Shown here piece after piece: positions 8,617-53,306 of a DNA stretch of 55,955 bases. Both the position numbers and the translations under genes were made by a program. The first letter of the stretch is position 1, and each line of letters begins with the position of its first letter. This stretch comes from Saprospiraceae bacterium. GTDB lineage: Bacteria > Bacteroidota > Bacteroidia > Chitinophagales > Saprospiraceae. Location: NCBI GenBank assembly GCA_026989035.1, contig JALSKB010000147.1:1-55955 (forward strand), read 5' to 3'. A model generated the notes under the pieces. The model searched no databases. It was not told the origin of the DNA and was given only the letters and a program-made list of their open reading frames with translations.

Positions 8617-9069
8617 GATGATGTCGTTTTTGGTTTTACATGTAAAAATAATAAAGCTTCCGGCCGGCATCAGCAGCGGCCTAATCTCGTTTACACAGGT
8701 ACAGCAATTGGGGTTGATTCTCTCAAGCTCTCGGTTGCGTTTTGGTTGTGTGAAGTGCTGAGAGCCATATCTTAAACAACTGATTTTTACAGAGGTTGAG
8801 ATAGGCGCTCTCTATGTGCTATAGAGCTTGCATATACTCATGAGGCAGTGCTTGTAGCTTGCCGTTTTATATCCGTCACGAAATATACCCAAACCGAAAT
8901 GGTCTGGGATATTTGCGACTTGCAAACGGGCAAAAGGTAGAGCGTTTGGGAGGCGTCAGCCTCCCAAACCACTTCGCCATGAGTATATTTTGGGCGTTGA
9001 TCACTTGCCGTTGCGGTTTTTGTCTGTGGCCGTTTGAATTCGTGCCGAGTCGAAGGGGCAAATCCTTTT
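8617..9069. other. Intergenic region holding dispersed repeat copy A
   Basis: This gap of about 450 bp lies between the lipase stop and the peroxiredoxin start. It contains the palindromic dispersed repeat copy A (8883-8988). A second TATACTCATG tract at 8833-8842 resembles the left end of that repeat without the rest. A GGCCGGCATCAGCAG segment at 8662-8676 also occurs upstream of leuS at 3076-3090. I find no gene here. Confidence 0.6.
8883..8988 (-). repeat. Dispersed ~105-bp palindromic repeat, copy A
   Basis: The orientation is opposite to the other copies. The ends are ATATACCC and GAGTATAT. The large hairpin is GTTTGGGAGGC / GCCTCCCAAAC, with loop TGAC when read in family orientation. 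The small hairpin near the other end is CCCAGACC / GGTTTGGG. The central part reads TACCTTTTGCCCGTTTGC. It lies between lipase and peroxiredoxin, both on the minus strand. Confidence 0.9.
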
Positions 9070-11229: not shown

Positions 11230-11570
11230 GCCAGGGAATTTAACTTAGCCAGTATTTGTCGGGTTTCTTTATACTCATGACGAAGTGGTTTGGGATGCGA
11301 GAGCATCCCAAACTCCCCAACTTTTGCTGGTTTGCAAGTTATAAATATCCCAAACCAAAATGGTTTGGGTATAGTATGGTGGCGGCCGTTTTTGGTAGAT
11401 TCAAGGGTATAGCCGTTTTGATTTTCTCAAGGTATCTTGGTTGGGGGCTGTGTTCCCAATGAATTCCCAAATATAGGTGTTTTGCGTCTAAACTTTTAGG
11501 GTTTTAATTGTTGTCAGCATTTTTTGGATGAGTTTCGGCTTTGATTTGTTGTCCTTTTAGCGGGGTATAT
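11230..11570. other. Intergenic region holding dispersed repeat copy B
   Basis: This gap of about 340 bp lies between the EamA stop and the lipase start. Copy B of the dispersed repeat occupies 11270-11373. The rest is A/T-rich with no gene, clear terminator or recognisable RNA. Confidence 0.6.
11270..11373 (+). repeat. Dispersed ~105-bp palindromic repeat, copy B
   Basis: It starts TATACTCATGACGAAG and ends GGTTTGGGTATA. The large hairpin is TTTGGGATGC / GCATCCCAAA around GAGA. Relative to the other copies, G to T on one arm is matched by C to A on the other, a compensatory change. The small hairpin is CCCAAACC / GGTTTGGG. It sits about 40 bp upstream of the lipase start. Confidence 0.9.
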
Positions 11571-14541: not shown

Positions 14542-16047
14542 ATGCAATCACCATCAGAAACTCAGGGTTCTTCTGCAAAGGCCCGCGATTTGGAGCATTT
14601 TTTTTCTGCCTTTCGGCAAAATATCCTCGGTGTAGATGCGCGTTTTAGCACGCCTTACGGAGAGGTGCCACTGGTGTATGCCGATTGGATTGCCAGCGGT
14701 CGATTGTACAAGCCGATTGAAGAAATCTTATGTGAGCGCTTTGGCCCCATGGTGGGCAATACGCATTCCGAATCCAGTGAGACGGGCCGCATCATGACGA
14801 TGACCTATCACCTGGCTCATCGCATCATCAAAGAACATGTGGGCGCTTCGGAAGACGACATCATCATCACCGCCGATTCGGGCATGACAGGGGTGTTGGC
14901 CAAGTTTCAGCGCATTTTGGGCTTGCGGGTGCCCGAGCGCCTGCTCAAATACATGGATATTCCCCGCGAAGAACGACCTGTGGTTTTTATTACCCACATG
15001 GAACACCATTCCAACCACACTTCTTGGTTGGAAAGCATAGCCGATGTGGTGGTTTTGCCACCGGACGAGCAGCTGCTGGTTCAGCCTCAAGCTTTGGAGG
15101 AAGCGCTGGAAAAATTTGCCGAAAGGCCCATGAAGATAGGCTCTTTTTCGGCTTGTTCCAATGTTACGGGCATCATGCCGCCTTATTACGAATTGGCTGA
15201 AATCATGCACCGCCATGGAGGCTATTGTTTTGTGGACTTTGCCGCTTCTGCCCCTTATGTGGACATCAACATGCACCCCGAGCACCCCGAGCAACGCCTG
15301 GACGCCGTTTTCTTCTCTCCCCACAAGTTTTTGGGCGGGCCGGGTAGTTCCGGCGTCTTGGTTTTTAACAAGTCTCTTTACCACAACCGCATTCCGGACC
15401 ATCCGGGTGGTGGCACGGTAAAATGGACCAACCCCTGGGGAGAATACAGCTATGTGGCCGATATCGAGGCGCGCGAAGATGGAGGTACTCCGGGTTTTTT
15501 GCAAGCTATTCGCACGGCTTTGGCCATTCGCTTGAAAGAAAAAATGGGGGTTGAGCGCATTCGGGCGCGGGAAGAAGAGTTGGTGAAGCGGGCTTTTGAA
15601 CTGCTGGAAAACGTGCCGGGTTTGCACGTCTTGGGAGGAGAGCACAAAGAGCGCCTGGGCGTCTTTTCTTTTTACTTGGAGGGCATACACCACAATCTGG
15701 TGGTGCGCCTGCTCAACGATCGCTTTGGCATTCAAGTTAGAGGAGGCTGCTCCTGTGCCGGAACTTACGGGCACTACCTCTTAGATGTAGATTGGAAACT
15801 CTCTCACGAAATTACTCGCCGTATTGAACAAGGAGACCTGTCCTTGAAACCGGGCTGGGTACGCCTGTCTTTGCATCCGACCATGAGCAATGAAGAACTG
15901 GAATACATCGGCAGAGCTTTGATGGCCGTGAGCGAAAACATCGCTTCTTGGAAAGAAGATTATTGCTATGACCCCGCAACCAACGAGTATTATTTTTGCA
16001 ATGAACGTCCCAATCCGGAAGCCTATAGTTCTTGGTTTGAGCTTTAA
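14542..16047 (+). CDS. Class V aminotransferase (cysteine desulfurase-like)
   Basis: This is a PLP enzyme of 501 residues. The PLP lysine K262 sits in FFSPHKFLGGPGSSG. HMEHHSNHTSW and FVDFAASAPYVDI supply the usual cofactor contacts. GGCSCAGTYGHYLL (C403 and C405) resembles the active-site cysteine region of SufS-type desulfurases. The protein is about 100 residues longer than SufS, with extensions at both ends. The C-terminus has an unusual YCYDPATNEYYFC segment. No Suf or Isc genes are nearby, so it may act on a different sulfur or amino substrate. Two copies of the short motif lie inside (14608-14620 and 15115-15127), in opposite orientations and different reading frames. Confidence 0.88.
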   Translation: MQSPSETQGSSAKARDLEHFFSAFRQNILGVDARFSTPYGEVPLVYADWIASGRLYKPIEEILCERFGPMVGNTHSESSETGRIMTMTYHLAHRIIKEHVGASEDDIIITADSGMTGVLAKFQRILGLRVPERLLKYMDIPREERPVVFITHMEHHSNHTSWLESIADVVVLPPDEQLLVQPQALEEALEKFAERPMKIGSFSACSNVTGIMPPYYELAEIMHRHGGYCFVDFAASAPYVDINMHPEHPEQRLDAVFFSPHKFLGGPGSSGVLVFNKSLYHNRIPDHPGGGTVKWTNPWGEYSYVADIEAREDGGTPGFLQAIRTALAIRLKEKMGVERIRAREEELVKRAFELLENVPGLHVLGGEHKERLGVFSFYLEGIHHNLVVRLLNDRFGIQVRGGCSCAGTYGHYLLDVDWKLSHEITRRIEQGDLSLKPGWVRLSLHPTMSNEELEYIGRALMAVSENIASWKEDYCYDPATNEYYFCNERPNPEAYSSWFEL

Positions 16048-16827: not shown

Positions 16828-16990
16828 TTGGTTGGGGTTGAATTTAAGATGTGGCAAAGTTAGGCAAACATACGCACTTGCTTTGGTCGCTGGTAAGCAA
16901 AGAGTTGGAGCCCTTGGAAGCTGTTGTTTAGGGCTCCGAGGAAGGCCCCGATTCTTTGGGTTTGATCATGGAAGAGATGAAAATGATTTA

Positions 16991-17094
16991 TATAGCCATG
17001 GCGAAGTGGTTTGGGGGGCGTCAGCCTCCCAAATTCCCTATCTTTTGCCCGTTTGCGAGTCGTAAATATTCCAAATCATTTCGGTTTGGGTATA
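16991..17094 (+). repeat. Dispersed ~105-bp palindromic repeat, copy C
   Basis: It begins TATAGCCATGGCGAAGTGG and ends GGTTTGGGTATA. The large hairpin has loop GTCA and one mismatched pair. The small hairpin CCAAATC / GGTTTGG contains G-T pairs. It lies between two divergent genes and ends 13 bases before the rhomboid ATG. Confidence 0.9.
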
Positions 17095-20951: not shown

Positions 20952-21016
20952 GATGTTTTATTTGTGTACTGTCCGGTTCTTCCTTGTGGAAAATCTTCGG
21001 GCAGTGGGTTTTCGCG

Positions 21017-21024
21017 TATTTTTG
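21017..21024 (+). promoter_or_regulatory. -7 box (TATTTTTG) for the nuclease-helicase gene
   Basis: TATTTTTG matches TAnnTTTG and lies 16 bases before the ATG at 21041, leaving only a short leader. A -33 element at the expected distance is not clear. Confidence 0.5.
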
Positions 21025-21040
21025 CGTAAAAATAAAGAAA

Positions 21041-24000
21041 ATGAGAGAGTCCGACCTCGCACTATGGTTTTTCAGGCAGTTGGCGAGTTTGCGGCAGGAC
21101 GATACCCTGAGCCTTCCCGTGCGCAGTATGCGGTTGTACGAGTTGATGCGTCGCTTGCTCAAGGAACGCACACGCGGCAAGGAATTGCATTTCAACACGC
21201 TTTTTGCACTTATAGCTTATGCTTGCCAGACTTACGGCATTCCGGAGGATGTGCAGGGGGCTTTGCAGCGATTTCGGTATTTGGTCTTCAAGCTTTACGA
21301 TCGTCCTTCCGACGACTTGGCCCGAGAGGTTTTGGACACGGGTTGGCCGGCTCTTGTCCTGGCGGTAGCCGGTTTTTATCAAAGTGAGATTCCGGAGGCG
21401 TTGAAAGAACAGCTCCCCGAAGGGCCTTTGCCCCAAGCTCGTAGGATAGAGGCCGTGGAGTACATGGCATATCGACGCGTTTTGCTCATCAGCCATTTGC
21501 CAGAGGAGCAGTGTTTTTATGCCCGCTTGGAAGATGATCCCGATCAGAAAGTCGTGGTTTGCTATGGCAGCGGGGAACGACACGATTTGTACTCTTCTTT
21601 TTTTAAGAAAGTTCTGGCGTTGTGGCCTTTGCCTTTTCTCGTCGGTTTAGAAGAGCTTTCCATAGATGAGCAGGGCGTTTACCATCCGCGCAGTTTTATT
21701 CTCGAACCGGATTACTTGCTCGACGTAACTACCATAGCCGAAGCTATGGACGGCCCTTCGGCTTTGGTGAGTTTTCTGCTCAAAAAATACATGCCGTTTT
21801 CCCCGGGCAAGCCGGTTTTGCTGGGGCATATCGCAAATTTCTTTCTCGACGAGTTGATGAATGAGCCGGAAGCCGAATTCAAGCAATTGTTTGCTAAAGT
21901 GTTTAAGCTCAATCCGTTGGGGTTTGCCCGGCTCAGTGATGCTGATGTCAGGGAAATTATGCAAGCTGCGAGGCAGCATTTCCTCACCATCAAAAGCATG
22001 GTTCGTCAGGGCTTTGCTCAAGAAGACATCGAGCGTGGCAAATCCTACCTGGAACCCACCTTTTATTCCGAGCGGCACGGTTTGCAGGGGCGTTTGGATA
22101 TTCTCTACCGGGGTGCTGACAAGACGAGTATCGTAGAATTAAAAAGCGGTCGCATTTTTAACCCCAATCAGTACGGCATCAACTCATCTCATTTTGTCCA
22201 AACGTTGTTGTACGATTTGATTATTCGCCATGTCTTTCGGCAAACGACGCCCCGCAACTACATGCTCTATTCAGGCAGCAGCGATACGCCCTTGCGCTAT
22301 GCTCCACCGGTGAAGGAGGTTCAGCGGGAAGCCCTACAACGGCGCAACGAGTTGCTGCTTGTCGAACGGGCTTTTCTCGAAACTTTTGCCAACAGGCCGG
22401 ATGGAAATTTGGATCAAAGCCCTGCGGCTCGTCTTTTTGAGGAGTTGCGTCCTGAGAGGCAAACTGGCCTTTTTGGTTTTCGCCGAGACAATCTCCGGAG
22501 TTTTAGCAGGGTGTACGAAAGCATGCGCCCTGTTGAGCGGCACTATTTTTTGGCTTTTTCGGGTTTTATCGCGCGGGAGCATCAGTTGGCCAAGCTGGGG
22601 CACGACAACAGCGATCGTCGTCATGGGCAAGCCAGCTTGTGGCGCTTGCCCTTCCTGCAAAAAGATGAAGATTATCAAGTGTTAGCTCATTTGAAACTCG
22701 TGGAAAACAAAGCTTCGGAAGAGGAGCCTCTGCTGGTTTTTCAACGCACGGAAAAGAGCAATCCCCTGGCTAATTTCCGCCAGGGAGATTTGGTCGTTTT
22801 ATATCCCGATCTTCAAGCGCCTTTGGCCCATCAACTCTTCAAGTGTACGCTGGTGGAAATCGATACCCGAAAAGTAAAATTGCGTTTGCGGGCGCGCCAG
22901 TTTAACAGCGATTTTTTTGAAATGTTTGACAACTGGCAGATTGAGCACGATTTGCTCGATAGCAGTTTTCTAAGCCTGTATCGCTCGCTTTACGCTTTTG
23001 CTGATGCTCCTTTGCAGAAGCGCCGCTTGCTGTTGGCAGAGGAAGCTCCTCCGCTTCCTGTCGATCCACCGGTATTTGATGAACCTGAGAATATGACGGC
23101 AGAGCAAAAAAAGATATTCAAAAAAATCATTTCCTCTCGGGCTTATTTTCTGCTTTGGGGTCCACCCGGAACCGGTAAGACCAGCATTATGCTGAGGGAA
23201 ATGGTTAGGCATTTTTTCCAAAATACGGAAGAAAACCTTTTACTCCTGGCTTATACCAATCGCGCTGTAGATGAAATTTGTGCTGCTATAGAGGGCATTC
23301 ACCCTTCTATGCGGAATAGCTATCTGCGCATCGGATCTTCTTATGCCACGGATGTCGCTTATCGCGATCGTCTCCTGAGTCGTCAAGTAGAGCAATTGCA
23401 TAGTCGCCGAGAATTGGTGGATCTCATACAAAAACATAGGATCTTTGTAGGAACAGTGGCTTCATTTGCCGGAAGGCAGGAGCTTTTACATTTTAAAAAA
23501 TTTCATCGGGTTATTGTAGATGAGGCCTCGCAAATTTTGGAACCCATGCTTATGGGCTTATTGCCTCAATTTGAACATTTCACCCTCATTGGCGATCACC
23601 GGCAATTGCCTGCTGTAGTCGTGCAAACGGAGGAAGATTCTGCCGTTGGGCAACAAGACTTGGTCGAATTGGGTTTGACCAACATGCGCAATTCACTTTT
23701 TGAACGCCTTTATCGCCAGGCACAAAAAAATGCTTGGGAGCATGCTTTTGCACAACTCAGCCATCAGGGGCGTATGCATGCCGACATCATGCGTTATCCC
23801 AATTTGCTCTTCTACAAAGGCCGGCTCAAGCTGCTTCCCGAACCTTTAAACGAGCGCCAGATAAAACCTCTTCAATGGCGGATAGATGAGGCCGCTCCGG
23901 CTTGGAAAAAACGGCTGGCTTCTCAGCGGGTGCTCTTTTTTAATTGCCAGGTTGATGAGGCTGCGCCCAACGATAAAACCAATCAATACGAGGCTGAAAA

Positions 24001-24412
24001 AATAGCAGAGATTCTCATCGCCTTGCGGCAAATGTATCGAAACCATGGTTCCGAGCTGAATAACGAACAAGTCGGCATTATCACGCCTTATCGGGCACAA
24101 ATTGCTTGTATCCGACAAGCTTTGGAAGCGCATGGGCTTGAAACGGAAAACCTGACGATAGATACCGTTGAACGCTTACAGGGTGGTGCTCGCGATGTGA
24201 TCTTCATCTCTTTTTGCGCCAACAGCTTGCGGCAAATGGAAACCCTCAGTACCCTTACGGAAGAAGGCATAGACCGCAAGCTTAACGTAGCTCTTACCCG
24301 AGCCAGAGAACAACTCATCTTGTTGGGCAATCGAGCTGTCTTGGAAAGCTCAAACCTTTACAAACAGTTGCTGGATGAAATATACTCATGGCAAAGTGGT
24401 TTGGGAGGCTGA
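21041..24412 (+). CDS. Dna2-like nuclease-helicase (PD-(D/E)xK plus SF1 helicase)
   Basis: This is a 1123-residue protein. About 350 residues of unknown N-terminal sequence precede a RecB/Cas4-like nuclease core: LQGRLDILY with D353, then VELKSGR with E366 and K368. A beta-rich region separates this from an SF1B helicase. Walker A GPPGTGKT is at 707-714, VDEASQ has D827, GDHRQLPAVV follows, and motifs V-VI read DTVERLQGGARDVIF and NVALTRAREQLILLGN. This order matches Dna2, which trims flaps and resects DNA ends, though it could be a defence or repair enzyme. The start at 21041 is preferred to an ATG 57 bases upstream because it follows the -7 box. The last dozen codons and the stop are supplied by dispersed repeat D. 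Confidence 0.9.
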   Translation: MRESDLALWFFRQLASLRQDDTLSLPVRSMRLYELMRRLLKERTRGKELHFNTLFALIAYACQTYGIPEDVQGALQRFRYLVFKLYDRPSDDLAREVLDTGWPALVLAVAGFYQSEIPEALKEQLPEGPLPQARRIEAVEYMAYRRVLLISHLPEEQCFYARLEDDPDQKVVVCYGSGERHDLYSSFFKKVLALWPLPFLVGLEELSIDEQGVYHPRSFILEPDYLLDVTTIAEAMDGPSALVSFLLKKYMPFSPGKPVLLGHIANFFLDELMNEPEAEFKQLFAKVFKLNPLGFARLSDADVREIMQAARQHFLTIKSMVRQGFAQEDIERGKSYLEPTFYSERHGLQGRLDILYRGADKTSIVELKSGRIFNPNQYGINSSHFVQTLLYDLIIRHVFRQTTPRNYMLYSGSSDTPLRYAPPVKEVQREALQRRNELLLVERAFLETFANRPDGNLDQSPAARLFEELRPERQTGLFGFRRDNLRSFSRVYESMRPVERHYFLAFSGFIAREHQLAKLGHDNSDRRHGQASLWRLPFLQKDEDYQVLAHLKLVENKASEEEPLLVFQRTEKSNPLANFRQGDLVVLYPDLQAPLAHQLFKCTLVEIDTRKVKLRLRARQFNSDFFEMFDNWQIEHDLLDSSFLSLYRSLYAFADAPLQKRRLLLAEEAPPLPVDPPVFDEPENMTAEQKKIFKKIISSRAYFLLWGPPGTGKTSIMLREMVRHFFQNTEENLLLLAYTNRAVDEICAAIEGIHPSMRNSYLRIGSSYATDVAYRDRLLSRQVEQLHSRRELVDLIQKHRIFVGTVASFAGRQELLHFKKFHRVIVDEASQILEPMLMGLLPQFEHFTLIGDHRQLPAVVVQTEEDSAVGQQDLVELGLTNMRNSLFERLYRQAQKNAWEHAFAQLSHQGRMHADIMRYPNLLFYKGRLKLLPEPLNERQIKPLQWRIDEAAPAWKKRLASQRVLFFNCQVDEAAPNDKTNQYEAEKIAEILIALRQMYRNHGSELNNEQVGIITPYRAQIACIRQALEAHGLETENLTIDTVERLQGGARDVIFISFCANSLRQMETLSTLTEEGIDRKLNVALTRAREQLILLGNRAVLESSNLYKQLLDEIYSWQSGLGG

Positions 24413-24484
24413 TGCCTCCCAAATGCTCTATCTTTTGCTCTTTTGCGAGTCGTAAATATTCCAAACCATTTTGGTTTGAGTATA
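24381..24484 (+). repeat. Dispersed ~105-bp palindromic repeat, copy D (overlaps gene end)
   Basis: It begins TATACTCATGGCAAAG and ends GGTTTGAGTATA. The large hairpin is TTTGGGAGGC / GCCTCCCAAA with loop TGAT. The first 32 bases encode the last residues and the TGA stop of the nuclease-helicase; the TGA lies in the hairpin loop. The element fills the space between convergent stops. Confidence 0.9.
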
Positions 24485-24522
24485 GATGCGCAATCAGCTG
24501 GTTTGGAAAATGAATTTGACGC

Positions 24523-25785
24523 TTAGATAGCAAGGATTTTTCGACGCAACATCTCCAAGGCAAAAAATGAAGTGTAGGCTATGTTGGACTTTCTGTCTTT
24601 TCCCAATTGCAGCAAGTGGGCTTCCTGCTGTTTTGCATGACCCACCGCAACCCAGATAGTGCCTACGGGTTTGTCGGGCGTTCCACCTCCGGGGCCGGCT
24701 ATGCCCGAAGTAGCCAGGGCCCAATCCGACTTCAATAGTTTGCTCATGCCTCGAACCATTTCCTTCACGCAGGCTTCGCTGACGGCACCGTGTTGTTGAA
24801 TTGTTGTTTTGCTTACGCCTAAAACTTCTTGTTTTACGCTGTTGGCATAGGAGATTACGCTGCCGAGGTAGTAGTTGGAAGCGCCGGGGACAGCCGTGAT
24901 GAGGTGAGCTAAGTATCCTCCCGTACAACTTTCAGCCGTGGCGATGTGCAAACCTCTTTCTCGTAACAATCTGCCGACAACTTCGGAAAGTTCGACATCT
25001 TCCGTGGCATAAACCATGGAGCCCAAGCGGGTGGTTATTTCGGAAACAGCTTTATCCAGCTGTTCTTGAAGAGCTTTTTCATGGCTTGCCTCGCGCTCAC
25101 TGCTTCGCGCCGTGAGGCGCAAGCGCACCCCACCCAAATGCGGCAGATAAGCCAGCTTCATGTTGGCTGCAAGGTTTTTTTCGAAATCGGCCAGGCGGGC
25201 GGCCACCTCGGGTTCTCCAGTGATGGCTGTGCGAATGACGCGATATACGATCAGCCCTCCGCCATGGCGCTCTTGCAGGCGGGGCAAGACAGCCCTTTGC
25301 ATGATGTATTTCATTTCAACAGGTACGCCGGGCATGGAAACCACAATTTTCCCCTCTCGTTCAAACCACATGCCGGGAGCTACGCCCATGGCGTTTTGCA
25401 ACAATTCGGCAGAGGTCGGCATCATGGATTGCCAGCGTTTGATTTCCTCATCCACATTGCGGCCAAAGCGTTCCGACAGGCGGCTGTAGTGTTCGTAAAC
25501 TTGTTGGGAGAAGATCAGTTCCGTATTGAAAAAATCAGCCAGCACTTTTTTGGTGATGTCGTCTTTGGTCGGGCCTAAGCCACCCGTTATGAGTACCACA
25601 TCGCTTTCGTCCAAAGCCCTTTGCAGGGTTTTGCGTATGGCTTTTTCTTCATCGGGGATGAGATGTACCTGTCTTAGAGGGATGCCTCGTTCGGTGAGCT
25701 GCTGACCTATCCAAACGGCATTGGTGTTGACGACCTGCCCGATGAGTAATTCGTCTCCGATGTTGATGAGAGAGGCTTGTATCAT
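24523..25785 (-). CDS. cinA: CinA family protein (competence/damage-inducible protein A)
   Basis: This 420-residue protein has two domains. The N-terminal molybdopterin-binding (MoCF) domain shows INIGDELLIGQVVNTNAVWIG and LITGGLGPTKDDITKKVLADFF. It acts as an ADP-ribose pyrophosphatase in studied homologues. The C-terminal CinA domain with TAESCTGGYLAHLITAVPGAS and ATSGIAGPGGGTPDKPVGT acts as an NMN deamidase. The protein thus recycles pyridine nucleotides; the competence link is historical and comes from pneumococcus. The start at 25785 (MIQASLINIGDE) matches homologues, and 66 further upstream codons are not conserved-looking. It lies 56 bp downstream of birA on the same strand. Confidence 0.96.
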   Translation of the reverse strand: MIQASLINIGDELLIGQVVNTNAVWIGQQLTERGIPLRQVHLIPDEEKAIRKTLQRALDESDVVLITGGLGPTKDDITKKVLADFFNTELIFSQQVYEHYSRLSERFGRNVDEEIKRWQSMMPTSAELLQNAMGVAPGMWFEREGKIVVSMPGVPVEMKYIMQRAVLPRLQERHGGGLIVYRVIRTAITGEPEVAARLADFEKNLAANMKLAYLPHLGGVRLRLTARSSEREASHEKALQEQLDKAVSEITTRLGSMVYATEDVELSEVVGRLLRERGLHIATAESCTGGYLAHLITAVPGASNYYLGSVISYANSVKQEVLGVSKTTIQQHGAVSEACVKEMVRGMSKLLKSDWALATSGIAGPGGGTPDKPVGTIWVAVGHAKQQEAHLLQLGKDRKSNIAYTSFFALEMLRRKILAI

Positions 25786-25841
25786 GTCGTTTTGGATTTC
25801 TCCTAAAGTGTCGAACTTTCCACAAAACGGCCCGGGTGGCT

Positions 25842-26675
25842 TCAATAGACAAATTCCACTTCTTTGAAGGCAAAAACTCGTTGTTTTCCGTCGCGATATT
25901 CCATGAGCAATTGCCCTGATTGAAGCAGGTCGATAAAGCGCCCTTCGATAAGAGTTCCTTCGCGGAGGCGATAGGGTGCCCATTCGCCAAAGCGAAAGAG
26001 AACCGATAGGTAATCTTTTCGCAGTTCATCAAAGCGGTTTTGGCGAAGTTGCAAATAACGCCGTTCTATTGATTCGAGCAGGTTTTTCAGCAAAGAGCGT
26101 CGTTTTGTTTTCACACCTTCTTTCTCCAGTGAAGTTACATGGACGAGTTCTTTGGGGAAAGACAGCTGATGAACGTTCAGCCCCACCCCAATGATGCTGG
26201 AACGCATCTCATTTGCCGAAAGGCTGTTTTCTATTAAGATGCCAGCCAGTTTGAACCCTTTTACGATGAGGTCGTTGGGCCATTTGATGAACACTTCTCC
26301 TTGAGGCAACAGCATGGAGATGCTGTCGTGTATGGCGAGAGCTATAGCCTGGTTGAGATAAAATTGTTTGTCCGGTTTTAGAAAACGGGGGCGAAGCAAG
26401 AGGCTGAAGAGCAGGTTTTGTCCGGGTTCGCTGTGCCAATGGCTGCCCCGTTGGCCATGTCCCCTTGTTTGAAAATCGGTTAAAACGAGGCTGCCTTCCG
26501 GCAAATCTTTGCCCAGTGTTGAGCCGACCGTATTGCTGTAATAGCTATAGGTTGGTAAATTTTCTCCCTGCAGCAGGCGGCGCAATTGCTCGCTGGTGGA
26601 ATCTAAAAGCGGATAAAACCAAAACTGTTTTCCCGTGAACAACGTTTTAGGAGAGAGTTCTTTTAAATCTGTCAT
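25842..26675 (-). CDS. birA: Biotin--[acetyl-CoA-carboxylase] ligase
   Basis: This enzyme attaches biotin to the carrier domain of acetyl-CoA carboxylase. The 277-residue protein has the biotinyl-AMP loop as TRGHGQRGSHWHSEPGQNL, a variant of GRGRxGR. KWPNDLIVKGFKLAGILIEN and IIGVGLNVHQ follow. It lacks the N-terminal helix-turn-helix of E. coli BirA, so it should be a ligase and not a repressor. A short motif copy at 26210-26224 encodes LSANEM. It is divergent from rsfS; birA next to rsfS and ftsH is a recurrent arrangement in Bacteroidota as I recall. Confidence 0.95.
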   Translation of the reverse strand: MTDLKELSPKTLFTGKQFWFYPLLDSTSEQLRRLLQGENLPTYSYYSNTVGSTLGKDLPEGSLVLTDFQTRGHGQRGSHWHSEPGQNLLFSLLLRPRFLKPDKQFYLNQAIALAIHDSISMLLPQGEVFIKWPNDLIVKGFKLAGILIENSLSANEMRSSIIGVGLNVHQLSFPKELVHVTSLEKEGVKTKRRSLLKNLLESIERRYLQLRQNRFDELRKDYLSVLFRFGEWAPYRLREGTLIEGRFIDLLQSGQLLMEYRDGKQRVFAFKEVEFVY

Positions 26676-32197: not shown

Positions 32198-32556
32198 GCT
32201 GAAGACTACAACTTTAGACTGCTACCCTTCCGAGAGGAAGTAAGGCGGCTTGCGTCTTGCCCGAAATCATGCTCAAGGGCACAATCCGTATAGCTTTCTA
32301 ACTGCTCATGTGCCAATGAGTTTTCCCTTATCCACGCATTCGCGATAGGCTCAAAACTATGGCTGCATAAAGGCCCCAAACCATTTCGGTTTGAGTATAT
32401 TTGCCTTTTTTCCTGGTTTAAGGTGCGGAAGATGCGATATATGACGGGCTTAGAGAAGCTGTCATGCAAGCTTTTAAAGTTTTTTTTCGTTATTTGAGTG
32501 AACAATCTCGTCCAACAACACCTATTCCCTGTACAAACTACAAAAACTTTAAAATC
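32198..32556. other. Intergenic region with a remnant of the dispersed repeat
   Basis: This gap of about 360 bp has no gene. It holds the right-hand end of the dispersed repeat at 32374-32400 without the large hairpin. The start of the following gene is placed at 32557 because an upstream in-frame ATG at 32464 adds a non-conserved-looking leader before the membrane helix. Confidence 0.55.
32374..32400 (+). repeat. Truncated remnant of the dispersed palindromic repeat (copy H)
   Basis: The segment CCCAAACCATTTCGGTTTG followed by AGTATAT matches the right-hand small hairpin and terminal end of the family. The left 75 bases, including the large hairpin, are absent or unrecognisable; only ACTATGGC about 16 bases earlier resembles the left end. 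Confidence 0.75.
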
Positions 32557-34761: not shown

Positions 34762-35096
34762 GTTGCGTTTGCTTGTGAAGAAATGAAATCCACTTACCCG
34801 GGCATTTAAGCAGGGTTTAGTTTGCAAATGTAATGATGCCAAACGGGTTTGGGTTTGCCTGAATTATTGAATTACAGGCAAATCCGGGCCTTTTTGTGCT
34901 TTGGTTGCCCTATAAAGCAGATGGCAAGGCAAAGCGGTTTGACCGGTATAATATACTCATGGCGGAGTAATTTGGAAGGCGTCAGCCTCCCCAATTACCT
35001 ATCTTTCGCCTGTTTGCGAGTTGTAAATGTCCCAAACCATTTCGGTTTGGGTATATAATAAATGAGTGCTACAATGGGGTAAAAGTTGTATTTTTC
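34762..35096. other. Intergenic region holding dispersed repeat copy E
   Basis: This gap of about 335 bp contains a -7 box for the leftward JmjC-type gene at 34825-34832 and repeat copy E. Nothing else recognisable is present. Confidence 0.6.
34952..35056 (+). repeat. Dispersed ~105-bp palindromic repeat, copy E
   Basis: It begins TATACTCATGGCGGAGTAA and ends GGTTTGGGTATAT. The large hairpin arms read AATTTGGAAGGC and GCCTCCCCAATT with loop GTCA. The outer pairs have changed from GG/CC to AA/TT while still pairing. The small hairpin CCCAAACC / GGTTTGGG is perfect. Confidence 0.9.
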
Positions 35097-37525: not shown

Positions 37526-38092
37526 TTACCAGATGACTTTCCAGCGTCGGTTTTCATGTTTTAGGAGGTGGAAAGCTTCGGCTTTAAAGCTGGTGCGGTA
37601 AGAGAGCTTCTCAAAATGACGCCTGGCCTTTGGGAATTGTTCTTCGCTTAAGTCCCGATAAGCAACGGTTGCATGGGGGTGGAAAGGGCGGTGAGACACC
37701 TCCGGAAAACCGGTAAGCTCAGCTGTGGCTTTTTGCAAATCGGCTTGGAGCTGTAAGAGCGCCTTGTCGGGGTAAACCTTCACAAAGACGACTCGGGGCG
37801 CGAAGAAGCCGAAGTCTTCGAGTCGGATTTCTAACCGGCTGAGTATTTCTTTCGTTGAGGGCCTTTCGGCAAATGTTTGCAGCCGTTTAATCAGGATGCT
37901 TTCTGCTTCGACTTCCTGCAGTCGGGGATGTTTTCCGGAAGGGAAGCGAAAAGGAGGTAAGAGGGTGATGTGTGGTGGATTGCGCAAAGCTCTTTTGCTG
38001 TGAAACAGTTCAGCGGCCTGTCGTTGAAAAGAGCGCAGCTCTTCGGCCTGTTTTGGGGGGAGGAGGAAAGCGACGAAATAGAGTTTGCTCAT
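37526..38092 (-). CDS. 2'-5' RNA ligase family protein (LigT/CPDase)
   Basis: This is a 188-residue 2H-phosphoesterase-fold protein. The two HxT-type motifs are PPHITLLPPF (HIT) and HPHATVAYRD (HAT). These act on 2',3'-cyclic phosphate or 2'-5' linked RNA ends. The start at 38092 (MSKLYFVAFLLPP) is preferred. An earlier in-frame ATG lies inside repeat copy F and is unlikely. The gene leads a minus-strand operon with fdhD. The motif copy at 37861-37875 encodes FAERP. Confidence 0.9.
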   Translation of the reverse strand: MSKLYFVAFLLPPKQAEELRSFQRQAAELFHSKRALRNPPHITLLPPFRFPSGKHPRLQEVEAESILIKRLQTFAERPSTKEILSRLEIRLEDFGFFAPRVVFVKVYPDKALLQLQADLQKATAELTGFPEVSHRPFHPHATVAYRDLSEEQFPKARRHFEKLSYRTSFKAEAFHLLKHENRRWKVIW

Positions 38093-38110
38093 GGTCGGCA
38101 GCTTTCTTTT

Positions 38111-38213
38111 TATATTCATGGCGAAGTGATTTGGAAGGTGTCTGCCTCCCCAACGCCCTGTCTTCGTTCCTTTGCAAGTCGTAAATATCCCAAATCATTT
38201 CGGTTTGGGTATA
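38111..38213 (+). repeat. Dispersed ~105-bp palindromic repeat, copy F
   Basis: It begins TATATTCATGGCGAAGTG and ends CGGTTTGGGTATA. The large hairpin arms are degenerate here (ATTTGGAAGG / GCCTCCCCAAC, loop near GTCT). The small hairpin is CCCAAATC / GGTTTGGG. It lies 18 bases upstream of the ligT-family start on the minus strand, oriented away from it. Confidence 0.88.
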
Positions 38214-38302
38214 GAAGAGCAAAAGTCCTTACCTTCAAAAGTACGGTGGAAGTCGGACAATTCCGCTTGAGAGCGGATCCTATCCGGCCTGCCCTCGGTT
38301 TT

Positions 38303-52461: not shown

Positions 52462-52591
52462 AGGTGCCGGATAAGCAAGAGCAAACGCTCCGGGAAAGAA
52501 ATGCCCGAGTTCTCTTTTGGGCCTTTCCATCTGGATCTTTTTTGCTATTTTTGCCCGACTTTAAATGAAGAGTTCGTTCTCACTGAGGGGA

Positions 52592-52694
52592 TGATCATGG
52601 CGGAGCGATTTGGGAGGCGTCAGCCTTCCAAATTACCTACCTTTCGCCGGTTTGCGAGTAGTAAATGTCCCGAACCATTTCGGTTTGGGCATAT
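52592..52694 (+). repeat. Dispersed ~105-bp palindromic repeat, copy G
   Basis: It begins TGATCATGGCGGAGCG and ends CGGTTTGGGCATAT. The large hairpin is ATTTGGGAGGC / GCCTTCCAAAT with one G-T pair, loop GTCA. The small hairpin is CCCGAACC / GGTTTGGG. It ends 15 bases before the ATG of the next plus-strand gene. Confidence 0.88.
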
Positions 52695-52709
52695 CAAAGT
52701 AAGTGGTCT

Positions 52710-53306
52710 ATGTTTACCATCAACATTTATCTGCGTTTTGCTCTCATCGCCCTGTTTTTGGGTGGCGGTATAGTTTTGGCGGCCTTGTACAGCTTTTGGT
52801 ACGCTCTGCCTTTAATCTTAATTGGCCTGGCCTTATTGATTGGCTATTTTCTTTTGGGCACCATTCAGTCGGCTGCGACGATGTTGCAGGCCGGTAAGAT
52901 GGCTGAGGCGGAAAAGCGTTTGAATTTGACGTTTTTTCCCGCTTTGTTGTACAGTGCCAACAAAGCCTACTACTATATGTTGCGGGCGGGCATAGCTCAG
53001 CACAAGCAGCAGAATCAGGAAGCTGAACGCTTTTTGCAGTTGGCCCGGGAAGTGAAGGTGCCTACCGACAACGAACGGGCGGTGATTCATTTGCAGTTGG
53101 CCAATATCGCTATGCAGCGCAACAACTGGGCGCAGGCCAAGGCTTATTTTAAAGTGGCTAAAAATTGCAAGCTTACCGAGCCGGCTATCAAAGAGCAGAT
53201 TAGGGAATTTGAAAAAGCCCTGAAAAACAGTGGCGTGCTCAAACCCGGAATGAGAGGGCAGCGCATGCAGCCCGGTGGTAAGCGTCGTCGGCCTAAGATT
53301 CGCTGA
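52710..53306 (+). CDS. Membrane protein with TPR domain
   Basis: This is a 198-residue protein. The ATG at 52710 (MFTINIYLRFALIALFL) is preferred; longer frames start inside repeat G. Two membrane helices (about 7-28 and 31-52) precede TPR-like helices (AEAEKRLNLTFFPALLYSANKAYYYMLRAGIAQHKQQ and ERAVIHLQLANIAMQRNNWAQAKAYF). The C-terminus is very basic (GMRGQRMQPGGKRRRPKIR). A tail of this kind could contact nucleic acid or the ribosome, but this is inference. radA follows after 46 bp. Confidence 0.86.
   Translation: MFTINIYLRFALIALFLGGGIVLAALYSFWYALPLILIGLALLIGYFLLGTIQSAATMLQAGKMAEAEKRLNLTFFPALLYSANKAYYYMLRAGIAQHKQQNQEAERFLQLAREVKVPTDNERAVIHLQLANIAMQRNNWAQAKAYFKVAKNCKLTEPAIKEQIREFEKALKNSGVLKPGMRGQRMQPGGKRRRPKIR

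Follow-up and report, generated by a model that had tools for sequence, protein, structure and literature searches.

Rickettsia palindromic elements are known for their insertion inside genes, and the Correia elements of Neisseria are about 105 bp long, with TATA-type ends, a TA target and a high copy number. MITEs have also been described at the 3′ ends of genes: the enterobacterial element RU-1 at the end of the amidase gene ECA3499 (Delihas 2007, PMC2759123), and QMITE1 and QMITE2 of Coxiella, which overlap ubiB, pntAA, mutT, nagZ, recN, ruvB and enhC (2018, PMC5896051).

In this work, a 55,955-nt contig of a Saprospiraceae genome (JALSKB010000147.1; the whole stretch is referred to as the window) was analyzed around a Dna2-like helicase gene that ends inside a 104-bp repeat. 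As at ECA3499, the MITE lies past the conserved domain, gives the C-terminal residues and carries the stop codon within the repeat; however, the RU-1 stop arose by point mutation and 35 residues were added, whereas here the stop falls in what reads as an inverted hairpin loop and ten residues are added (PMC2759123). The two repeats also belong to different families and different hosts. The QMITEs likewise clip or extend the 3′ ends of genes and supply stops, but they are 150-400 bp long, contain variable direct repeats and affect many genes, as against one of 46 copies here (PMC5896051). Given the RU-1 and Coxiella precedents, MITEs supplying C-termini and stops are already known in other bacteria, and the helicase case is a further example. 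The Correia elements are alike in general description only, their Neisseria hosts belonging to another phylum.

The 3′ end of the helicase gene

The helicase ORF, with a likely start at the ATG at 21041, encodes a protein in which a PD-(D/E)XK nuclease is joined to an SF1 helicase domain, as in Dna2-like nuclease-helicases. The Pfam domains PDDEXK_1 and AAA_11/AAA_12 were found in it, AAA_12 ending at residue 1117, and its best relative of solved structure (PDB) is DNA2 (5eaw, E 2.4e-32). The protein also matches NCBIfam NF040671 (PLuB system helicase-like protein) with E 4e-72, at a score far under the family cut-off. The final codons of the gene are GAA ATA TAC TCA TGG CAA AGT GGT TTG GGA GGC TGA, and the protein ends ...LLDE-IYSWQSGLGG. 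With its first base at 24381 (TATACTC...), the repeat has exactly its first 32 bases inside the gene; it contributes the last ten codons (IYSWQSGLGG), the first of which, ATA, overlaps the TA target, as well as the stop, located in the loop of its left hairpin (Table 1). The original prediction, that a repeat copy supplies the last codons and stop of this gene through 32 coding bases and a TGA in the hairpin loop, was thus borne out in each of these points.

An outer TA is present at both ends of the focal copy and is read here as a TA target-site duplication. The copy folds end to end with -40.4 kcal/mol (z -6.4). Just two tRNAs were recovered by the Rfam search at gathering thresholds, the repeat corresponding to no known RNA family, and a search of a plasmid collection gave no match to it. 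The left hairpin is terminator-like with a weak T tract, and the convergent ORF across the gap is one that we take to be CinA-like from general features of that family. Retention of the hairpin as a terminator or mRNA stabilizer between the convergent genes is improbable: the single terminator-like match on the + strand and the very stable fold speak for it, but the T tract is weak, and the copies in the window occupy tandem, divergent and convergent gaps alike and thus show no preference for gene ends.

Table 1. Features of the helicase locus and copies of the repeat family in the window
Feature	Position	Strand	Remarks
Dna2-like PD-(D/E)XK nuclease / SF1 helicase ORF	20984..24412	+	Pfam, PDB match, orthologues in relatives
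Helicase stop codon TGA	24410-24412	+	within loop of the repeat's left hairpin
Focal MITE copy, 104 bp	24381..24484	+	element proper TAC...GTA 24383-24482, 100 bp
Left terminal inverted repeat	24381..24405	+	TATACTCATGGCAAAGTGGTTTGGG; matches left end of L098 IS630-type element
Right terminal inverted repeat	24460..24484	-	reads TATACTCAAACCAAAATGGTTTGGA on - strand
Left hairpin, 10-bp stem, 4-nt loop TGAT (24410-24413)	24400..24423	+	TTTGGGAGGC-TGAT-GCCTCCCAAA
Deduced displaced native tail GAT...GCT TAG	24485..24526	+	putative, DAQSAGLENEFDA*; open in gene frame if one TA kept
Convergent ORF, presumably CinA-like	24523..25983	-	stop abuts right flank of focal copy
MITE copy nearest focal copy	8884..8987	-	89% over 107 nt; TGAC loop
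MITE copy	11270..11374	+	intergenic
MITE copy	16990..17094	+	intergenic
Isolated right end of MITE family	32375..32399	-	
MITE copy	34950..35055	+	intergenic
MITE copy	38111..38215	+	overlaps possible ATG of ORF 37526..38119 (-)
MITE copy	52590..52693	+	left end degraded

A MITE family of the IS630 group

The repeat, with ends TATAC...GTATA, has 25-bp imperfect terminal inverted repeats, both of which fit a single degenerate pattern. Its open frames do not exceed 34 codons and it has no transposase of its own, and its copies are many, dispersed and surrounded by unrelated flanks, as is typical of a MITE. With up to three mismatches allowed, the degenerate 25-mer matched 405 positions in the 3.12-Mb genome, compared with none for the reversed pattern used as a control, and the left half of the element with any loop occurs 123 times; the genome holds well over a hundred copies, which were sampled through searches. 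Full TATA was found at the start of 52 of 63 copies and at the end of 51 of 63, beyond which the flanks are not conserved. In total, the window contains seven near-full copies and one solo end.

Several arrangements were noted alongside. Two of the window copies overlap possible start codons, at 38117-38119 (ORF 37526..38119, - strand) and at 52665 (ORF 52665..53306, + strand), and the true starts of these ORFs may lie further in. Tandem or abutting copies occur in L013 (around 1544), L053 (2475-2679) and L074 (1501-1716), the abutting ends in L013 sharing one TA (GGGTATATACTC). A 62-bp palindrome (L128, G000:C179:4141-4202) consists of two left ends and matches on both strands. The window also contains another short repeated motif, GCCTTTCGGCAAA / TTTGCCGAAAGGC, at 15105, 18755, 36438, 37859, 44412 and 50078, often within ORFs.

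The affiliation of the family was deduced from an element of 1,113 bp in another Saprospirales genome (L098, PAAY01000102), running from a left-type end (4226) to a right-type end (5338) and carrying a broken ORF that matches the IS630-type transposase domain DDE_3 of Pfam (E 3.2e-27). Its left and right ends are identical to the MITE consensus at 21 and 23 of 25 positions, respectively. Since the MITE ends thus match those of a full-length element with a DDE transposase, albeit in a related genome and with a broken ORF, the repeat is, on this comparison, classed as a non-autonomous MITE of the IS630 (Tc1/mariner) group. Elements of the IS630 type duplicate TA on insertion.

Only decayed or partial copies were obtained when the IS630 transposase was searched for in ten genomes; decayed relatives of the L098 transposase are present in the window's own genome, where the relic is 42% identical over just 62 aa, and in the MAG G046. 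A decayed IS630 transposase relic of the own genome also contains a solo right end, a 29-bp palindrome TATACCCAAACC..GGTTTGGGTATA (L105:1639-1667). This MITE unit, with equal spacing, is also found in G046/JALSGS, which belongs to another genus of the family, and related ends are present in 17 of the 199 Saprospiraceae genomes (the window's own counted). The named matches to the ends are from Saprospiraceae/Saprospirales, which puts the window itself in Saprospiraceae. From other genera of the family, the genomes G079 (130 ends), G149, G150, G047 and G045 (loci L083, L084, L087 and L091) carry related ends of the form TATAC..GTGGTTTGGG, which probably represent further MITE families of the IS630 group. 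Here, we report a high-copy IS630-group MITE family in Saprospiraceae; a single literature search on this subject yielded a paper on a bioreactor community and no description of MITEs in Saprospiraceae.

Entry of the gene into the element and its probably displaced tail

Conservation of the helicase ends just ahead of the repeat. Alignment with the proteins of relatives holds as far as residue 1129-1139 or so, after which these have unrelated variable tails, the shortest of about one residue and the longest of more than 20. A tail resembling YSWQSGLGG is absent from the helicases of all 21 family relatives, so that the comparison of C-termini by which the original prediction could be checked found no orthologue lacking the repeat that ends in these residues. 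When the flanks of the focal copy are joined with one TA, the frame remains open to ...LLDEIDAQSAGLENEFDA-TAG, that is, for 13 residues and a stop overlapping that of the convergent gene; this joined sequence would be the empty site expected for a TA-targeting element. An empty-site strain was not found, and the corresponding site of the genus mate (L022) could not be aligned, its downstream gene differing.

These data make it highly likely that the helicase gene received an IS630-type MITE at a TA in its 3′ end, gaining IYSWQSGLGG and a stop and losing the deduced tail. Movement of the MITE would have been driven in trans by the transposase of an IS630-like element whose ends match, and its target TA would have lain within the non-conserved end of the gene. 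The resulting 102-nt insert being open in the entered frame save for the loop codon, translation would run on into the element as far as the TGA of the left hairpin loop; the protein would gain IYSWQSGLGG and lose the deduced 13-residue tail.

The claim that the native C-terminus was replaced accordingly holds only as a probable one: the orthologue tails are unrelated, and a non-conserved native tail was very probably lost to the insertion, but the nearest relative is 67% identical and has a different gene downstream. This relative, the genus mate, ends at the LLD-equivalent position, and the flanks joined with a native TATA in place of TA read ...LLDEI*, close to its end; the native tail could therefore have been shorter than 13 residues. 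On the same two grounds, the native gene may have had its stop at the insertion point or directly beside it (...LLDEI* or similar), the MITE overprinting its stop and adding about nine residues. We regard this as unlikely, because the TA duplication made by IS630-type elements and the single TA shared by the abutting copies of L013 favor the longer tail. If the longer native tail is true, the empty site would read GAAATAGATGCG and the protein would end DAQSAGLENEFDA; if the shorter end is true, GAAATATAGATGCG would be expected in related strains.

Among 46 copies examined in context, the family is nearly always intergenic, and the focal copy is the only one into which a real gene clearly runs; nothing thus points to selection for a coding role of the MITE. 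Other ORFs of at least 80 codons that enter copies (L062, L069, L071, L073, L076 and L012) were judged spurious by eye from their GTG/TTG starts and composition, and a 647-codon frame running into the copy at 11270 was set aside as antisense to a 719-codon ORF. A MITE-coded tail selected as a functional extension of the helicase is scarcely credible: the gene is intact and its frame clean, but the tail lies outside all domains, the tails of relatives are completely different and just this one copy is entered by a real gene. The new C-terminus is presumably functionally neutral. As with the Rickettsia elements, copies with a GTCA loop could make an open, frame-keeping insertion, but the Saprospiraceae family does not insert habitually in frame, and its one copy in a clear gene ends the protein.

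Orientation of the hairpin loop

Among the 99 listed MITE copies, the loop is GTCA in 47, of the GTCA class in 80 and of the TGAC class in 19, and exactly TGAT in one. This agrees with the earlier statement that the usual loop is GTCA and that of the helicase copy TGAT. Reverse-complementing a GTCA-class loop gives the TGAx/TAAx type, and the focal TGAT is best read as a TGAC-class, inverted loop with one further C to T change. At the codon where the helicase terminates, 17 of the 99 copies, the window copy 8884-8987 included, read TGA or TAA; in 69 copies the first 43 nt remain open. The proposal that a loop change provides termination while other copies stay open must thus be narrowed: the TGA does lie in the loop and most copies are open, but the loop change is not special to this locus, TGAT belonging to a common inverted class.

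Two plus-strand frames of the MITE consensus are open. Counting the TA duplication, the net insert amounts to 102 nt or 34 codons and keeps the frame; past the TGA, the focal frame meets no further stop in the element or in the 13-residue tail until the TAG ending at 24526. The usual GTCA loop at the helicase site would therefore give an in-frame 34-residue insert followed by the native tail. In a tree of 63 copies computed with the loop excluded, 54 of which could be scored for orientation, 16 changes of loop orientation were counted compared with 14.5 for shuffled labels, which amounts to no phylogenetic signal, and copies that differ by one or two bases elsewhere carry opposite loops (e.g. 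L124/L126 versus L125). This lack of orientation signal suggests recurrent inversion of the hairpin loop or its exchange between copies but, in a tree of only about 100 columns, does not prove it.

Against this background, a GTCA-loop copy may have come first as an in-frame 34-codon insert with the native tail translated, a later loop inversion creating the stop and truncating the protein. The preserved frame, open past the TGA to the TAG, the recurrent changes of orientation and the GTCA-class majority make this a serious possibility, if a somewhat less than even one; however, about 17% of copies already have a stop at the loop codon, which makes a later event unnecessary, and one genome cannot order insertion and inversion. 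Under direct termination by the inserted copy, a TGAT or other TGAx loop may have been present already in the copy that inserted. We give very little credence to the further idea that loop inversion acts as a reversible switch, GTCA giving the in-frame 34-residue insert with the native tail and TGAC the truncated protein; if it were true, one gene could toggle between two C-termini.

In the helicase, a MITE has rewritten the end of a protein without breaking it, and the orientation of the loop decides whether translation stops. Repeated inversion of this loop may offer a handle on hairpin extrusion in vivo.
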